A DNA stretch of 41,953 nucleotides from an uncultured Verrucomicrobiota bacterium. GTDB lineage: Bacteria; Verrucomicrobiota; Verrucomicrobiia; Limisphaerales; UBA9464. The DNA lies in assembly GCA_903907925.1 (NCBI GenBank), contig CAIVQB010000145.1:1-41953 (forward strand). The letters run 5' to 3'. Position 1 is the stretch's first letter, and each line of letters starts with the position of its first letter. Under the pieces are notes generated by a model that was not told the origin of the DNA, did no database searches, and saw only the letters and a program-made list of their open reading frames with translations. The position numbers were made by a program, and so were the translations under genes. This document shows, one piece after another, positions 12,954-24,246 of the stretch.

Positions 12954-13181
12954 TTATCCACCCGATCGTTTGGACCGGGATTTCGGCAAATCCTCCACCG
13001 CCACGATGTGCAAGGCATCGAGAGTGGTCACCGAATCATCCCGTCCCAAAACCACCACCACCCCTTTGCCGATGGCCAGGAATTCAGGATGCGGAACCGG
13101 GTAGCGCTGTCCGTCGCTGGTTCCGATAGTGAAGGGTTTGAATCCGTTCACCAAACGTTCCCGGATCCGGTTCAAGTTCAT
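12954..13181 (-). CDS. Small conserved protein, paralogue of 14309-14533
   Basis: 75 residues. ATG 13181 is used because the frame's longer version would need a TTG two codons earlier and the paralogue begins at the same residue. It is predicted to be soluble, with no signal peptide and one compact domain: an MNLNRIRE start, GFKPF, VPHPEF, then a C-terminal core VLGRDDSVTTLDALHIVAVE. Identity to the second copy is 51 of the first 66 residues (about 77%), and the last 23 of those residues are identical. Codon differences in that core are silent, so both copies look maintained. GTAGT lies 8 nt before both start codons, so the duplication included the leader. I recognise no named family. Confidence 0.8.
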   Translation of the reverse strand: MNLNRIRERLVNGFKPFTIGTSDGQRYPVPHPEFLAIGKGVVVVLGRDDSVTTLDALHIVAVEDLPKSRSKRSGG

Positions 13182-13241
13182 AAGCAATCACTACTCCCGG
13201 GCACATCAGCCGGCAACCGTGCTCTCTTCCACCGCCCCGGA

Positions 13242-14312
13242 TCATCGTTTCCCGAGCCGACTGCCGATTCGAATCATCGGCACTTCGATGCAATAATAGC
13301 TCAGGGCGGCGAGAATCAGCGTCGCTCCGAGGCACCCGGGAACGCTCCAAACCGGGGAAGGAATCCGGACCGCGCAGAACAGCGTCTGCCAGAGATAAAG
13401 GCTGAAGCTGATGCGCCCGATCCAAACAACCGGTGGCCAGTTGCAAACGATTTGAGCGATGAAACACCGTCCCTCAGTGACGACCTTGATCACCACGGCA
13501 ATGGTTCCCAGGATCGCCGATGGGCCGGCGACGATTCCCAGCTTTCCGCCGGGCAGACCGTATAGGATTTGGTATCCCAACAAGGCGATCCCGGCAAAGA
13601 GAGTGAGGGTCGCCGTTAAGGGTCGATTCAGCAGCGCTCGAAACGCGGGTCGTCGCTGGGCCAATGCCAGCGCGGCCCCCACCAACACACTGTCGAAGAT
13701 CAGATCGAGGCGGCCCAATCCGAGAGGCGCGCCATGCGCCGCCTTGGTGACCAGATGACGCCAGATGGGAGCGGCTCCGCAAAGTGCGACCACCATCCAG
13801 AGCCGATATCGCGCCGGCGCGATCACCAGCAGCAGGGGCCAGATGAAATAGAACTGGGCTTCGACGGACAGGCTCCACAAATGACCGGTCAGGCCGGATC
13901 CCTCCGTGTGGAGAAGATTCCGGAAGAACAACAACGATCCGAGCCATTCTGAAGAATCCCACGTCAATCGACACCCGAGCGTGAGCACGAGGGCTCCGAC
14001 GAGATAGACATAGGTGGCCGGCAGGATCCGGAAGGCGCGACGAAGGTAGAACCTGTGGATATCGATGCGTCCGGTCCGATCCTCCTCCTCGCAGAGCAGA
14101 GTGGTGATGATAAATCCGCTGATCACGAAGAACAGAGTGACCGCAGCACTACCGTGACGGATCCATTGATCCATGAGTCCGGCCGAACGAAAAAAGCCGT
14201 CACGGACGTGCAGGTGGAAGGCGATCACCCAGACAACTGCGAACGCACGCAAAGCGTCCAAACCCGGGAGCCGGTCTTTACGCGGAGGGTTCAAGGATGC
14301 GGTCCGGATCAT
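13242..14312 (-). CDS. Acyltransferase family 3 (OafA/YrhL-type) integral membrane protein
   Basis: 356 residues with about ten hydrophobic segments. Hallmarks of the family are RLPGLDALRAFAVVWVIAFH near residue 20, LFFVISGFIITTLL (about 60-75), FYLRRAFRILPATYVY, and GHLWSLSVEAQFYFIWPL with the conserved H and E. Members transfer acetyl or other acyl groups from the cytoplasm onto cell-surface sugars such as O-antigen or exopolysaccharide. The ATG overlaps the TGA of the small gene 14309-14533 by 4 nt (ATGA), so the two are probably translationally coupled. A second copy of that small gene lies 60 nt downstream. The physical sandwich suggests, but does not prove, a functional link. Confidence 0.93.
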   Translation of the reverse strand: MIRTASLNPPRKDRLPGLDALRAFAVVWVIAFHLHVRDGFFRSAGLMDQWIRHGSAAVTLFFVISGFIITTLLCEEEDRTGRIDIHRFYLRRAFRILPATYVYLVGALVLTLGCRLTWDSSEWLGSLLFFRNLLHTEGSGLTGHLWSLSVEAQFYFIWPLLLVIAPARYRLWMVVALCGAAPIWRHLVTKAAHGAPLGLGRLDLIFDSVLVGAALALAQRRPAFRALLNRPLTATLTLFAGIALLGYQILYGLPGGKLGIVAGPSAILGTIAVVIKVVTEGRCFIAQIVCNWPPVVWIGRISFSLYLWQTLFCAVRIPSPVWSVPGCLGATLILAALSYYCIEVPMIRIGSRLGKR

Positions 14313-14533
14313 CGATCCCGCTTGGATCCGGGCCCGGGCAGATCTTCCACGGCAACGATGTGCAAGGCGTCGAGGGTGGTCACTGAATCATCCCGGCCCA
14401 GAACTGCGACCACACCCTTGCCGATCATGATGAATTCCGGATGTGGAACCTCGTACCGCTTGCCGCCGCTGGTTTCCAGGGCGAACGGGCGAAATCCATT
14501 CGAAACCTTTTTGCGGATCCGATCCAAATTCAT
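14309..14533 (-). CDS. Small conserved protein, paralogue of 12954-13181, coupled to acyltransferase
   Basis: 74 residues from ATG 14533. It begins MNLDRIRKK and shares VPHPEF, IGKGVV and the 23-residue C-terminal core with its paralogue. There is no signal peptide or membrane segment, so it is likely cytosolic. The stop overlaps the acyltransferase start (ATGA), pointing to coupled synthesis. The two copies differ mainly in the N-terminal half and the charged tail. Function is unknown; an adaptor or regulator of the acyltransferase is one guess, a tandem duplication interrupted by the acyltransferase another. Confidence 0.82.
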   Translation of the reverse strand: MNLDRIRKKVSNGFRPFALETSGGKRYEVPHPEFIMIGKGVVAVLGRDDSVTTLDALHIVAVEDLPGPGSKRDR

Positions 14534-14576
14534 GGACCATGACTACCCATCGGGAAACCCGCCCGCAAGTGGGCGT

Positions 14577-15659
14577 TTAGTACACGCCTTCGACGATGTT
14601 CTTTTCCATCGCGCCGAAGGGCCGGACATCACCGACGCCGTCCCAGGCATAGGGCGGCCGTGGGGTGCGGCGGATGGCTTCGTCGCGTTCGAGAAAGCGT
14701 GGCATGAAGAATTCCTTCGTCAGCGTGGTGAGTTCCACGCGGCCGAATTCGCCATAGCCGACCAGGTCGGTGGTGGCGTTGGGCTTCACCACTCGCAACA
14801 CGGCGCGCGGCTGGGAGGCGTAATAGGTCACGCTGAAATTGTCCTCCGGCTGCAGCGGCACGCTGGCGGCGAGACCCATGAGGGTGTTGCCGTAGGTGGG
14901 ATAGAAACCGATGCGGCCTTCGAGAAGTTCCTCGACCAGGAAACGAACCTCCTGCGGCTTCATCGACGTGCCGCCGCAGAACACACCGCGGATGCCGGCG
15001 TCCCAGAGGTTGACCTGCTCGGCGAGGGCTTCGAGCAGCTTCGGCGTGGTGAAGAGTCCCGAGACCTTGCGATGCTTGAGGATGGTGGCCGCCTGATCGA
15101 CCACGTGGGTCATGTACTGCTTCGCGACTTCAAACTGTTTGTTCGTGATGAGCTTCTTCACGAAGCTCGGATCGAGATCAATGAAGTAGCAGGAGCTGCC
15201 GCGCACGTTGGCGAGATGCTCGATCGCGAGACGCAACCGGCGGGGACCGGTCGGCCCCATCATCAGCCAGGCACCGCCGCGGGGAAAATGGGCGTCGGAA
15301 ATCTTCTCGGAGAATTCCGAGTAGTCGACCTTGTAGTCGTTCCAGCCGATGCGCTGTTTCGGCATGCCGGTGGTGCCACCGGTCTCGAAGATGTTGAACG
15401 GTTTGCCCTTGAAGGCACCGGGGACCCACACCTCGGGCTGCAGATCGCGGAGGAATTCGTCCTGGAAGTGGGGGAACTTCATCATGTCGGCGAAGTTCTT
15501 CACTTCCTTCCGTGGATCGAAATTCTTCGAGGCCCAGTCGAGCCAGAACGGACAGCCGGTCTCCGGGCTGAAATGCCATTGGATGATCTCGGCCAGATGG
15601 GATTCAAGCTGCACCTGGGCGGCAGCGACGGCTTCGGGAGCAACGGTCGGGATGGGCAT
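14577..15659 (-). CDS. Short ANL-superfamily adenylate-forming protein (EhpF/AMP-binding-like)
   Basis: 360 residues. The motif ETGGTTGMPKQRIGW (about 92-106) corresponds to the phosphate-binding TSGTTGxPK loop of acyl-activating enzymes. Further AMP-binding-like blocks are GLFTTPKLLEAL, GIRGVFCGGTSM and FYPTYGNTLMGLA (the Y-G-x-T-E-type motif, with N in place of E). GDVRPFGAMEKNIVEGVY ends the protein. The C-terminal lid domain of ordinary acyl-CoA synthetases is missing, as in the phenazine-pathway protein EhpF. It probably activates or binds a carboxylic acid; the substrate is unknown. No biosynthetic partner (carrier protein, condensation enzyme) is adjacent. The gene stands 44 nt upstream of the small-paralogue/acyltransferase unit on the same strand and may be cotranscribed with it. 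Confidence 0.72.
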   Translation of the reverse strand: MPIPTVAPEAVAAAQVQLESHLAEIIQWHFSPETGCPFWLDWASKNFDPRKEVKNFADMMKFPHFQDEFLRDLQPEVWVPGAFKGKPFNIFETGGTTGMPKQRIGWNDYKVDYSEFSEKISDAHFPRGGAWLMMGPTGPRRLRLAIEHLANVRGSSCYFIDLDPSFVKKLITNKQFEVAKQYMTHVVDQAATILKHRKVSGLFTTPKLLEALAEQVNLWDAGIRGVFCGGTSMKPQEVRFLVEELLEGRIGFYPTYGNTLMGLAASVPLQPEDNFSVTYYASQPRAVLRVVKPNATTDLVGYGEFGRVELTTLTKEFFMPRFLERDEAIRRTPRPPYAWDGVGDVRPFGAMEKNIVEGVY

Positions 15660-19947: not shown

Positions 19948-22900
19948 TTATTGCGGACGGGTGGGCGCTTCCCAGGCTTCGAGGGCGTGGCCGGGGGCGC
20001 TATGGAGGAGGACGGTGTCGTTGGCAGCAAACCGGATCCAATTCCGCGGTGCGATCGGACTCACCCGGAGCCGCAGGTGGCGTTCCCCGCCCGGGGCGGG
20101 AAGGGCATCCCAGAACTGCAGGGTTCGGTCCCCGGAGCTGGTGACGATTCTCCCGTCCTGGGAAACCGCGAGGGCCGTAACTCCCCCGGTCTGCGCCCGC
20201 CAACGCTCGGATTCCAATTCCTGACCGTTGTTGGCGTCGAAGACCCGCACCCAGCCATCCTCGTTTCCGACGAACAGGCGGCGACCGTCGGGATGAAAGG
20301 CGACGGCGGTGTCATAATCCTCGGCCGTTCCCAGCGAAACGAATCCCCCAGTGATCGCGTCGGCACGATACAATCGCGCGTGGTGTCCGATGAATCCAGT
20401 CACGGCAATCCTCCGTCCGTCTGGCGAAAGATCGACCGCATTGACCCCGCTCGCTCCATACAACATGCGTTGATCGTCCGTTCCCGAGGTGGTGTGGGAT
20501 TCCAGATTCAGCACCAGCAACTTGCCCGGAATGAGACCGACCAGGGTACGTTCATCGCTCGAGAGAATACCCCGGACGACGACCCCGAAACCCGGGTGGG
20601 ACGGAATTCCCTTCACCCGCCAGAGTTCGTGCGGTGGGCTGTTGGCGTTCGTGATTGGGGACCAGACGAAGAGTTCGCCGGTTTCGAAATGACGCGTCAC
20701 GGCGCGGCCGTCGCTGAGGACCGCGAGGGGGTAGTGCCACTCGGGATATGGAATGCGCCGTCCGGAAGTCCGGTCCCAGAGCCAGGTGCGATTGGTGTCG
20801 GCACGGTACAGTGCGAACCGACCATTGGCCGAGGCGGCTGGATGTTCCCAGAAATTCGCGGTCGAGATTCCACCCACCCGGGCCTGGGGAGCGGAAGCGA
20901 TCAGAGGCCAGAGGCGGAGCGAGCCGTCGTCGCCCACAGTTGCGAGCGGTGCGGTTCCGGGGACTCCGGGGGAAAAGGTCAGGTCCCGGATGCGTTCGGT
21001 ATTTCCGAGCAGAAAACCGAACTGCCCGCCGCCGGCCGAGCGGCTGAGTAAATCGGTCGGAGGTGTTTGCGGACCGGCTTCGCCGATGGGTTGTCCCAGA
21101 CCGGGAGCGGCCTCATCGTCGTAGGTGGGCGATGCGATTGATGCCGTGCCGATCCGAAACGTCCGCAGCGAAGAATCACCGCTGGCGACGGCGAGGACCG
21201 GTTGATCCGGGCTGAATGCGAGCGCATGAATCTGTGCCGGCAACGAGGCTTCGAGTACGGGCGCCTGGGTGTTGAGGTCATACACCGAGACGTCGGAAGC
21301 CGTTCGCGCCTGGTGGCCGATGGCGACGGCGAGATAGTGGCGATCGGCGGAAAAGGCCAGAAGCGCGGGGGATCCGTGGATTGGAATAATCCGTTTTGCC
21401 GGGGAGCTTTGCAGCGTAGCCACTGGAACGAGATTCGTTCGCGGAAGCACCTCGATCTGCATGCCGCGGGGATTGTCGCGGGACCACGCGAGCCATTCCC
21501 GATCCGGAGAAAGGACGACCGGACCGAAGATGCCATCGAGGATCCGTTCTGTGGCGCGGGTCGTGATATTGAAGATGCCGGACGAAGCGGTTCCGGCTGC
21601 ACCCCAAACATTGTTGCCGGCAAAGAGGACCCGCTCGTCGTCGATCCATACGCCGCCCATGTGACGGCCGGCGGTGGAATGGATCAGGGCACCCGTCGCG
21701 GTCTCGGCGACGATGAGGATGTCACCATCGCCGCACAGGAAGCGTTTCCCGTCGGGTGAAAACGTGAGGACCTGAAAGCCGGTGTCGACGGCGATCTGCG
21801 TGTGTTGCGCGCGGACGTTCGGCACGGTGGGACCGACGGTCACGGCCAGAGTCACAGGATCAAACCAGCGGATCACCCGGTCGCTGGTGAGCACCGCGAG
21901 GTTTTTTCGAATCGAATCCCACGCCACACACCGGGGTTCCCGGGGAGCGAGGTTCAGCGAACCCGCGTCGTCACCCCGGCACAGCCAATCCAGGAGCCGC
22001 CATTCAAAGCCGCGCCGTTCAGGATCCATTCCCGCCAGCAAGTGTCGCGTATGTCCCAGATCCCCCTGCGCCCGCGCCGAGAATGCCTGGGCCACCGTGG
22101 CGAAGTATGCGTGATCCCTGGCCCTGACTTCCGCGGCATGGGCGAGAAGGGCGTTTTGATCGGCGTGACGTCGCGCGGTCTCGGCCCGACGCCACAGGAC
22201 TGTTGAGACGCCGGCTCCGGACACCAGCGTGAGCAGCAGAAAGGCGGCGAGGAGGGAGATCTTCTTGTTGCGACGCACCCACTTTCCGGCGCGTTCCAGC
22301 GGAGTCACGGCGCGGGAATGAATGGGTTCACCGCGAAGCCACCGATCCAACTCGTCGGCGAGCCCGCCCGCGCTGGCGGGGCGCCGGGCGGGATCCTTGT
22401 CGAGGCAGCGCAGGCAGAGGGTTTCGAGATCGCGGAAGGCGGACCGGGACGATTCATGAATCGAAGGCGTCGAGTCGCCCGGGCGCGTGGTCTGAAGTGC
22501 GCGTACCTGGCTGGGTGGCACGGGATCGACGTCGAGGATTCGTCGAAAAATATCCTCCTGACTCTCGCCCGAAAACGGCAGTTGGCCGGTGGTGAGTTGG
22601 TAGAGAATGGTGCCCAGGGCCCATATGTCGCTGGCCGTGCTGATGTCGCGGACCCGTCCGGCGGCTTGTTCTGGCGACATGTGGTGCGGCGTCCCCAGAT
22701 GCGCGGAGGACATCGTGAGGGAGCTGTCCTCATTCATCAGCTTGGCCAGACCGAAGTCGGTCAGGAACGGCACGCCCGAGCCGTCGAAGAGAACATTGGC
22801 CGGCTTCAGATCGCGATGCAGGACGCCGTGTTGATGCGCGTGTTGCACGGCGCGGGCGATGGTGGAAACGAGACCGGCGGCGTCGCGATCAGAGATTCGC

Positions 22901-23400
22901 GGTCCGGGCTTGGCGATCCGCTGCGCCAGCGATCCGCCCTCCATCAGCTTCATTGAAATGAACGGCTGACGGCGATGCTCGCCCACTTCGAACACTGGAA
23001 CGATGTGGGGATGGTCGAGCCGGGCCGCCGTTTCCGCCTCCAACCGGAAGCGCGCCTTGTCGGAGTCGCCCACCAGAAACACGCTTCGAAACAGCTTCAG
23101 GGCGACGATTCGACGCGTCCGGGTGTCTTCGGCTTCGTAGACAGCGCCGGAGCCGCCGACGGCGATCTCCCGACGCACGACATACGGCCCGAGTCGGCAG
23201 GGCAACGCGGTGGCGTCGAAACCGGTGTCCATGGGAGCGACATCGTCGATGGGGGCGGGCGTGACGTTTTCACTGTCCCTGGCGGGAAAGGCGTCTTCGA
23301 ACAGGACCTGCGAAAGCGCGCAGGCCGCGCAGGGTTGTTGCGCGGGGACGGGCGCGCCACAGGTGCGGCAGTGGCGGGCGGAGCCGGGCTCGGTGCTCAT
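19948..23400 (-). CDS. Membrane Ser/Thr protein kinase with WD40-like beta-propeller sensor
   Basis: 1150 residues. The N-terminus has a possible zinc-ribbon (CRTC at 11-14, CAAC at 24-27). The Hanks-type kinase domain (about 73-355) is complete: Gly loop VGGSGAVYEA (81-90), Lys102 in VALKLF, catalytic HRDLKPANV (195-203), DFG (215-217) and SPE (242-244). A single transmembrane helix (about 381-402) leads to a coiled-coil-like Ala/Arg stretch and then WD40-type repeats (about 470-1150) with phrases like LTFSPDGKRFL, LAFSPDQPVLAVASGD and VTALAVSQDGRIVTSSGD. The propeller is therefore probably extracytoplasmic, with the kinase in the cytoplasm. The ECF sigma gene lies just upstream (99 nt) on the same strand, an arrangement known in PVC bacteria where the kinase may act on the sigma factor. 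Here that is an inference. Confidence 0.93.
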   Translation of the reverse strand: MSTEPGSARHCRTCGAPVPAQQPCAACALSQVLFEDAFPARDSENVTPAPIDDVAPMDTGFDATALPCRLGPYVVRREIAVGGSGAVYEAEDTRTRRIVALKLFRSVFLVGDSDKARFRLEAETAARLDHPHIVPVFEVGEHRRQPFISMKLMEGGSLAQRIAKPGPRISDRDAAGLVSTIARAVQHAHQHGVLHRDLKPANVLFDGSGVPFLTDFGLAKLMNEDSSLTMSSAHLGTPHHMSPEQAAGRVRDISTASDIWALGTILYQLTTGQLPFSGESQEDIFRRILDVDPVPPSQVRALQTTRPGDSTPSIHESSRSAFRDLETLCLRCLDKDPARRPASAGGLADELDRWLRGEPIHSRAVTPLERAGKWVRRNKKISLLAAFLLLTLVSGAGVSTVLWRRAETARRHADQNALLAHAAEVRARDHAYFATVAQAFSARAQGDLGHTRHLLAGMDPERRGFEWRLLDWLCRGDDAGSLNLAPREPRCVAWDSIRKNLAVLTSDRVIRWFDPVTLAVTVGPTVPNVRAQHTQIAVDTGFQVLTFSPDGKRFLCGDGDILIVAETATGALIHSTAGRHMGGVWIDDERVLFAGNNVWGAAGTASSGIFNITTRATERILDGIFGPVVLSPDREWLAWSRDNPRGMQIEVLPRTNLVPVATLQSSPAKRIIPIHGSPALLAFSADRHYLAVAIGHQARTASDVSVYDLNTQAPVLEASLPAQIHALAFSPDQPVLAVASGDSSLRTFRIGTASIASPTYDDEAAPGLGQPIGEAGPQTPPTDLLSRSAGGGQFGFLLGNTERIRDLTFSPGVPGTAPLATVGDDGSLRLWPLIASAPQARVGGISTANFWEHPAASANGRFALYRADTNRTWLWDRTSGRRIPYPEWHYPLAVLSDGRAVTRHFETGELFVWSPITNANSPPHELWRVKGIPSHPGFGVVVRGILSSDERTLVGLIPGKLLVLNLESHTTSGTDDQRMLYGASGVNAVDLSPDGRRIAVTGFIGHHARLYRADAITGGFVSLGTAEDYDTAVAFHPDGRRLFVGNEDGWVRVFDANNGQELESERWRAQTGGVTALAVSQDGRIVTSSGDRTLQFWDALPAPGGERHLRLRVSPIAPRNWIRFAANDTVLLHSAPGHALEAWEAPTRPQ

Positions 23401-23499: not shown

Positions 23500-24246
23500 T
23501 CATTGCCGGAGGAGTCGAACCAAGTGACGGAGTTCGTCGTCCACCTCGGATTCATCGGGAACGGTGGCCCGGATTTCGGATCGGACCCGGGTGGCGAACT
23601 GCTGGCGCAGGTCGTGGGCGGCCTTGTTGACCGCCCCCTCGGTCATTCCCAGTCGAAGCGCGATAGTCCGGTGGGTTTCGGCGTCCGGACTGCCCTCCAG
23701 TGAGATGCGGAGCGCGGCGAAAAGTTCGGCCCGACCCGACCAGGCCTCTCCAACCAGGCTCAGCGCCCGGGAGAAAACACCGCGTGCCCAGGCGCGCTCG
23801 AAGGCAATGTCCGGAGTGTCGCCGTCGCGGGCCGGCGGTTCGGCGCGCAACGCCTCCAATTCCTCCAGCGGCAACGGGACGATTCCTCCGCCCCGTTTGA
23901 CGGCGTGGTCCCGATCGTTTTGATCCCGCACCCAGCGCCGGAGGGCCACCAGCAGAAAATTCCGGAAGCGTCCGTCGCCGGGACGCACCTCGCGGAGAAA
24001 ATCGCGGCTCAGCAGATAGGCGAAGAACCCCTGAACCTGATCGGCCGCCGTATCCGGATCCGCACCCCGCTGGCGCAGATAGATGTAGAGGGGTTGCCAG
24101 TAGGCGTGCGCCAACCGCTCGAGGGCCTGGAGGGAAGCCGGGGCGTCCGCGTCACCCACCGCGAGAATGGCCGACCACATCGTGGCCGGAAAGAGACCCG
24201 GCTGAGTCGGCGCCGGGGCGGGACTGGGCTGGATGCCAGGCTTCAA
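23500..24246 (-). CDS. ECF-type RNA polymerase sigma factor (PVC kinase-associated type)
   Basis: 248 residues. The best-supported start is TTG at 24246; the family core begins at FPATMWSAILAVGD (about residue 19). Region 2-like sequence YWQPLYIYLRQRG, then DTAADQVQGFFAYLL and RFRNFLLVALRRWV, match the sigma-70 ECF proteins of Planctomycetes and Verrucomicrobia. Region 4-like helix-turn-helix is near 190-215 (THRTIALRLGMTEGAVNKAA). A C-terminal tail of about 25 residues (VDDELRHLVRLLRQ end) is typical of this group. The divergent neighbour side has no anti-sigma gene. The kinase directly downstream is the likely regulator, possibly by phosphorylation. Targets may include the secreted proteins further downstream. 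Confidence 0.9.
   Translation of the reverse strand: MKPGIQPSPAPAPTQPGLFPATMWSAILAVGDADAPASLQALERLAHAYWQPLYIYLRQRGADPDTAADQVQGFFAYLLSRDFLREVRPGDGRFRNFLLVALRRWVRDQNDRDHAVKRGGGIVPLPLEELEALRAEPPARDGDTPDIAFERAWARGVFSRALSLVGEAWSGRAELFAALRISLEGSPDAETHRTIALRLGMTEGAVNKAAHDLRQQFATRVRSEIRATVPDESEVDDELRHLVRLLRQ

Follow-up and report, generated by a model that had tools for sequence, protein, structure and literature searches.

Two small proteins flanking an acyltransferase gene in an uncultured Verrucomicrobiota bacterium belong to a dispersed family with a promoter-like signature at its start codons

What are two closely similar small proteins doing on either side of an acyltransferase gene, and are they partners of the enzyme? 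The question is raised by a 41,953-nucleotide (nt) stretch of DNA from an uncultured Verrucomicrobiota bacterium (contig CAIVQB010000145.1 of assembly GCA_903907925.1; the whole stretch is called the window below), whose minus strand encodes, in order of transcription, an AMP-ligase-like gene, a first small protein (small 1, 14309..14533, 74 amino acids (aa)), an acyltransferase (13242..14312, 356 aa) and a second small protein (small 2, 12954..13181, 75 aa). A first-pass annotation had described this layout, and its observations were confirmed: the first 66 residues of the two proteins align ungapped with 51 identities, residues 44-66 are identical throughout while 10 of their 23 codons differ synonymously, the TGA of small 1 overlaps the ATG of the acyltransferase (ATGA), and both small genes carry GTAGT 8 nt before the ATG. 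The interpretation attached to them, in which the small proteins serve surface-glycan acylation or record a duplication around the acyltransferase, was only partly supported. The reading that we favor, and consider probable, is that both genes belong to a dispersed, self-promoted family in which a 35-bp sigma-70-type promoter abuts the start codon of a single open reading frame (ORF), with a leaderless message and unit-like spread.

The small proteins of the window are members of a large, dispersed and uncatalogued family. Both copies match the family profile over its full length and carry the motifs P-F, G, HP[ED]F and D-x-L-H-I-V by which membership was defined; their E values against this profile, 7e-33 for small 1 and 3e-33 for small 2, are not independent, as both copies are rows of the 17-row profile. 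Used as a single query, small 1 recovered small 2 in its own genome at E 9.8e-32 and reached members of other genomes at E values as low as 1.4e-20. In a 42-row alignment of members P16, F17 and G24 are nearly invariant. With a single window protein as query, 10 of 58 relatives gave matches, its own genome counted; with the 17-row profile at E <= 0.001, the family appeared in 96 of the 293 genomes from the order (56 of the 154 good-quality ones). A phylum-wide draw, with the best 15 candidates per genome considered, gave matches in 8 of 387 genomes, the window's own among them. The claim that both window copies are selected also held, with a ratio of nonsynonymous to synonymous divergence (dN/dS, omega) of ~0.17 between them (NG86; dN 0.17 and dS 1.07 over 66 codons, 0.18 and 1.00 over 64). 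Omega was 0.05-0.20 in 10 of 12 hand-picked member pairs, those with usable dS, although several dS values were saturated; low values across member pairs imply that the protein is kept by purifying selection. What gives the family its interest is that a purifying-selected protein with at least 19 copies in one genome (order-level profile search) goes unmatched in the versions of Pfam and NCBIfam that were searched.

Searches beyond the family gave little. The window's two proteins had no match under E 1e-3 in Pfam, NCBIfam, PHROGs or PADLOC (best PHROGs value 0.085), and searches with 17 members (PHROGs, Pfam) and 42 members (Pfam, NCBIfam) returned only isolated one-member matches (lowest E 0.0026 for Pfam, 0.0013 for NCBIfam), which we take as chance. 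Sequence searches of solved structures gave best E values of 0.3 and 0.82, and the titles in the literature search listings included none on such a family. Plasmid carriage was rejected for lack of a plasmid match with two members as queries, and viral carriage likewise, with no match in phages (one member as query) or in four viral-contig scans (one protein, three small alignments). The window's own genome holds a third, distant member of 84 aa on another contig (L064:5646-5900, contig C132); 70 nt downstream of it lies a 65-aa ORF that has no Pfam or NCBIfam match and by eye resembles a short antitoxin-type protein.

The GTAGT before both window genes is read here as part of a -10-like box (TAGTNA at -12 to -7) and not as a ribosome-binding site, because of its position. 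Among 110 members read in context (the window's two included, one duplicate stretch left out), the window's pair alone carries the exact pentamer so placed, and it was rejected as a family-wide motif (2/110); its A, at position -11, is A in most members. With member start codons set by the protein profile, independently of the upstream DNA, we carried out an unbiased scan of 240 position-base tests over the 60 nt before 106 non-redundant starts, compared with 407 other genes from the same stretches. A-11 ranked first (61% versus 24%, p 7e-13), T-34 (59% versus 25%, p 9e-11) and T-35 (55% versus 26%, p 4e-8) came next, and G-33, A-32 and C-31 were also within the top 8. The family signature is thus TTGAC at -35 to -31 together with the key A of a -10 box at -11, across a 17-bp spacer; it is apparently that of a sigma-70-type promoter, from which a leaderless mRNA is predicted, and a promoter signature at the start codon of this family is new here. 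TTG at -35 combined with A-11 was present in 42 of 106 members and in 13 of 647 other genes. In a sliding control with the -10 box set at -12 and the spacer at 17, 39 of 106 members matched the consensus at 7 or more of 12 positions, as did 2.6% of the 647 other genes; with any other spacer from 14 to 20, or at the five offsets that scored next best, the figure was no higher than 9 of 106 members.

The window's own candidate promoters, placed in part on the strength of the family-wide enrichment, read TTGCGG-N17-TAGTCA-N6-ATG for small 1 (-35-like box at 14563..14568, -10-like box at 14540..14545) and TTGCCG-N17-TAGTGA-N6-ATG for small 2 (13211..13216 and 13188..13193), all on the minus strand, with the boxes at -35 to -30 and -12 to -7 from the start codon. 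The spacing of genes agrees with such a signal: where a same-strand gene lies within 150 nt upstream, the gap is shorter than 31 nt in 1 of 38 members and in 113 of 228 other gene pairs (p 4e-9), and 18 of the 38 member gaps span 31-51 nt, which suggests that members keep free the room a promoter needs. Downstream same-strand gaps showed no clear deficit (10 of 31 shorter than 31 nt, p 0.085).

Two studies tie leaderless genes in other phyla to a TANNNT box at about -12 (PMC3160421, PMC12340547), and expression in D. radiodurans rose when a -35 box stood 17 bp ahead of the -10-type box (PMC12340547). As described there, leaderless genes of Deinococcus-Thermus share with the small-gene family a -10-type box near position -12; there, however, it is a feature of many unlike genes, most of which lack a -35 box, whereas here it belongs to one dispersed family with a clear TTGAC. 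Term counts in the main text of both papers give no mention of Verrucomicrobia, and a third source classes some Verrucomicrobia as Shine-Dalgarno-scarce (PMC10783764). The leaderless-type box is found family-wide and is weak for the window's two genes taken alone. The signature offers a cheap and direct handle for testing leaderless expression in a little-studied bacterial order.

We next consider how far the promoter and the ORF behave as one piece. From related members with at least 75% protein identity, 19 pairs without a shared neighbour (up to three genes per side) were chosen greedily, each member being used once, after 14 pairs with a shared neighbour had been excluded. DNA identity in these pairs was 0.458 at -37 to -1, fell to 0.306 and 0.233 further upstream, and was 0.265 and 0.255 past the stop codon. 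A wider set of pairs with unlike flanks (153 of 165 related pairs) showed a smaller step, with 0.34-0.38 inside -37 and 0.25-0.27 outside. We read this as a promoter and an ORF forming one unit, while the same edge could come from selection on the promoter alone. A terminator-like hairpin was rejected as a part of the unit, being rarer after members (4/109) than after other genes (51/538).

In our proposal a typical member is self-contained and consists of two parts, a sigma-70-type promoter of 35 bp that abuts the start codon and a single ORF of some 70-80 codons. The predicted transcription start is the start codon itself, which would yield a leaderless mRNA without need of a Shine-Dalgarno site. 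The units occupy gaps between unrelated, often housekeeping genes, and their presence varies between close relatives. Related members that stand at different sites have little in common outside promoter and ORF, as though the whole unit moved or was copied. The small protein would be made wherever the unit sits, with read-through into the next gene at some sites. In the window, one unit lies after the AMP-ligase-like gene; the ATGA overlap ties the acyltransferase gene to the 3' end of this unit, and through it the enzyme is probably expressed from the small 1 message. After the acyltransferase comes small 2, a second, diverged copy of the unit.

Several observations count against a start-abutting promoter that travels with its ORF. 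Mean consensus matches were 4.90 at the predicted offset, compared with 4.58 at +23 and 4.39 at -1 (2.84 on average elsewhere); the last two offsets both touch conserved coding sequence, and the clear contrast in the sliding control lies in the strong matches, not in the means. Within the -10 box, T-12 and T-7 fell outside the top 14 of the scan (28% versus 25%, and 37% versus 28%). The window's boxes make 5 (small 1) and 6 (small 2) of 12 matches, levels also reached by 18% and 8% of other genes. The starts of the other genes came from a simple caller, and the members are related, so that their counts are not independent. As for the unit, the promoter stretch was the most alike of five stretches in 13 of the 19 pairs and not in 6; L130/L151 and L175/L173 remain alike to about -57; and the contig of L107, a member used below, ends soon past the gene, so that its neighbourhood is poorly known. 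Ungapped comparison of the 19 pairs revealed no shared end sequence after the ORFs, and no search was aimed at transposases.

The strongest alternative is vertical descent with very many losses and rearrangements, in which the unit has no mobility and selection acts on promoter and ORF only. We regard this as a real possibility, though we would not call it probable. It would account for contexts that recur across families of the order: prfB upstream with trpC downstream, the commonest immediate same-strand neighbours (7 of 110 members), and, downstream of 5 members, a leuC-like gene from the aconitase family. Promoter selection alone would yield the similarity edge at -37, and the absence of any common site after the stop codon is likewise as vertical descent would have it. 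Against it stand two pairs, L123/L150 (proteins 91% identical) and L107/L122 (89%), each of which shares promoter and ORF and has no common neighbour among the fetched genes. Vertical descent is also at odds with the window's genus, in which five relatives readable past the AMP-ligase gene have no unit there; the contig of a sixth (G004) ends inside the gene. In one relative of the same genus (G005) the AMP-ligase gene directly precedes a relative of the gene that follows small 2 in the window, an arrangement that is, on its gene order, an empty site, though divergence is too great to show the joint.

Other neighbours recur as well. An AMP-ligase gene lies upstream of the small gene in four cases, namely the window, L038, L119 (with an extra short ORF between) and L037 (a shortened copy), and DUF1553 and DUF1501 genes are also among the recurrent immediate same-strand neighbours; the neighbour names, those above included, rest on one identified example each, the remainder being assigned by similarity, and the neighbours of most members do not recur within the set. 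In the window the AMP-ligase-like gene (14577..15659, minus strand, 360 aa), the recurrent upstream neighbour of the site, has a weak PF00501 match below the cut-off. AMP-ligase was rejected as a constant partner: 128 of 195 same-order genomes have a match to it at E 1e-80, nearly always a single one, and 3 of 32 AMP-ligase loci, the window included, carry a small gene in the flank, plus the shortened copy in G016. The site downstream of it looks like an insertion hotspot. In G016, a genome of the same family, this site holds a shortened, probably frame-shifted member (L037:8220-8393), then a 180-aa ORF and then a DUF6036 nucleotidyltransferase gene, and G003 (L034) has ORFs of matching sizes and similar starts after its AMP-ligase gene. 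The scatter of the family raises the question of how a gene without visible mobility features (transposases and integrases were not searched) reaches so many sites. Integron cassettes are also small, dispersed and single-gene, and some reportedly carry promoters; the small-gene units differ in that they mostly stand alone and not in arrays, and in that no shared attC-like site follows the stop codon at the low identities given above, integrases again not having been searched.

A second alternative accepts the upstream signature and denies the leaderless transcript, taking it for the mark of a conventional promoter followed by a short leader, or for a translation signal. Strong enrichment within the -10 box at A-11 only speaks for such readings, yet TTGAC and A-11 lie, with a 17-bp spacer, where they should if transcription begins at the start codon. 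Also against this alternative, A-11 is as frequent in members that have a same-strand gene close upstream (63%) as in those that do not (62%), and Shine-Dalgarno-like words are not clearly enriched upstream of members (GGAG 5% versus 7%, AGGA 6% versus 5%, GAGG 9% versus 6%). We judge this alternative unlikely.

Still less credible to us is a type II toxin-antitoxin role, with the family as a solitary antitoxin or a toxin-like element. The proteins are small, their copies are many and scattered, and they apparently have promoters of their own, all of which would suit such a role, as would the DUF6036 nucleotidyltransferase-domain gene at the AMP-ligase site of G016 and the published statement that toxin-antitoxin messages of M. 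tuberculosis are predominantly leaderless (PMC8485053). However, the window's two proteins had no PADLOC match, and members lack a constant adjacent partner gene, the commonest neighbours accompanying 7 of 110.

The proposal that the small proteins are translationally coupled accessory subunits or regulators of the acyltransferase, for which the ATGA overlap and the two selected copies around the enzyme had spoken, is very improbable and largely refuted by neighbourhood counts: no acyltransferase of this type was found near other members (102 other loci), no small gene near 29 other acyltransferases, and in L117 a DUF1501 gene is likewise joined to a member by a 4-nt overlap. The first-pass annotation had itself named solitary homologues away from acyltransferases as an outcome that would refute it. 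The context set comprised 111 members in 104 sources, which without the window and one duplicate stretch leaves the 102 loci; the 111 fetched stretches consist of these, the duplicate, and a further eight in which no member was called, of which six are AMP-ligase loci and two have members with a stop. An acyltransferase profile of 30 sequences, the window's included, matched nothing at E 1e-4 in the 111 stretches, and on a further 58 short loci, largely overlapping them, the window alone matched. Conversely, the family profile found no small gene in the flanks of the 29 acyltransferases (up to 1.5 kb, some shortened by contig ends), which were the best of the matches in 62 of 293 genomes. The arrangement of an acyltransferase between two small genes was seen in the window's genome only. 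The enzyme, which we take to be of the OafA type, is an ordinary Acyl_transf_3 member (PF01757, E 2.1e-26; 93.2 bits against a cut-off of 31) with no tie to the small proteins found, and the tempting link from these proteins to glycan acylation is here corrected as unsupported.

The other suggestion of the first-pass annotation, that the pair is the trace of a duplication around the acyltransferase, found qualified support, firmer from DNA than from protein. In a 9-row DNA tree the window pair are sisters (96/94) and a grouping of small 1 with L106, which comes from a different family within the order, was rejected (p 0.044); dS is 1.0 between the window copies and 1.8 between small 1 and L106. 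The small 1 protein, by contrast, is identical to L106 at 56 of 72 positions and to small 2 at 54 of 72. A 14-row protein tree weakly preferred small 1 with L106 (70/66) without rejecting the window pair (approximately unbiased test, p-AU 0.32), and a 110-row tree placed small 1 with L106 (96/36) and small 2 with the shortened L037 (92/72). The test weakly rejected a group made up of the window copies plus L038 and L119, which are linked to AMP-ligase genes (p-AU 0.03). Probably, then, the pair arose by an old local duplication followed by divergence; this is the better reading of the trees, and it is uncertain.

Other stretches also hold two members. In L173:3998-4480 (G499) two members from different branches of the family tree lie 3 nt apart, and L116, L132, L163, L174 and L180 each have two members, also distant ones, which implies that local clusters are not mostly fresh duplicates. 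The members in L108 (G600) and L152 (G565) are broken by an in-frame stop, so some family copies decay.

What the protein does may be approached through its fold. Two AlphaFold models were built from four-sequence input, with predicted local distance difference test (pLDDT) values of 53 and 54. The first has a helix and five strands; the second has an N-terminal helix, six strand segments and a three-residue helix before the last strand, and its best hits, none of them significant, are to barrels of Hfq and DUF903, together with some tudor domains and unrelated chains. From these models we would guess that the small proteins are SH3/Sm-type beta barrels that bind nucleic acid or peptide, a guess that is more probably wrong than right. 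Hfq and other Sm-like proteins share with the weak model the N-terminal helix, the strands and the short helix before the last strand, and Hfq chains are among the best structure matches (VIA Z 4.3-5.0 to the pLDDT 54 model); in contrast to Hfq, a single gene, there are many paralogues here, and no sequence relation was found, 42 members giving no match to Pfam Hfq. DUF903 proteins (YgdI/YgdR), small SH3-like lipoproteins, are similar in size and reach Z ~5 to the same model. DUF903 proteins carry a lipoprotein signal; by eye, the translations of the window's two proteins show no signal peptide or lipobox, unlike DUF903. The barrel guess is further weakened by the poor quality of both models, by a best Foldseek E of 0.1, by VIA Z values of at most 5.1, a level that per the tool possibly means a common arrangement and that an unrelated cytochrome c nearly equals (Z 4.9), and by hhalign values of about 1% for Hfq (14 columns) and DUF903 (10 columns). 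The hhalign controls, cold-shock and CsrA, gave less than 0.1% each; Hfq and DUF903 lie higher, and all are far below significance (two- or three-row profiles).

Pfam Hfq (PF17209) was detected in 0 of 29 genomes of the window's order-level group, its own included, and in 5 of 14 control genomes. One could imagine, as a long shot, a minimal mobile gene: a unit of about 260 bp, made of the 35-bp start-abutting promoter and one small barrel-protein ORF, which would occupy many intergenic sites per genome with no visible end repeats and act as a locally tuned, nucleic-acid-binding regulator of host operons in bacteria without detected Hfq.

Some further features of the window deserve mention. G+C content at third codon positions is 0.71 in the acyltransferase gene and 0.67 in each of the two small genes, compared with 0.82 in the AMP-ligase-like gene and also higher values in most window genes; the lower values would fit a later acquisition of the three genes. 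At 19948-23400 the window encodes a large protein that resembles Ser/Thr kinases, below curated cut-offs, and beside it, at 23500-24180, lies a 226-aa ORF without an NCBIfam match at 1e-10 that by eye looks like an extracytoplasmic function (ECF)-type sigma factor.

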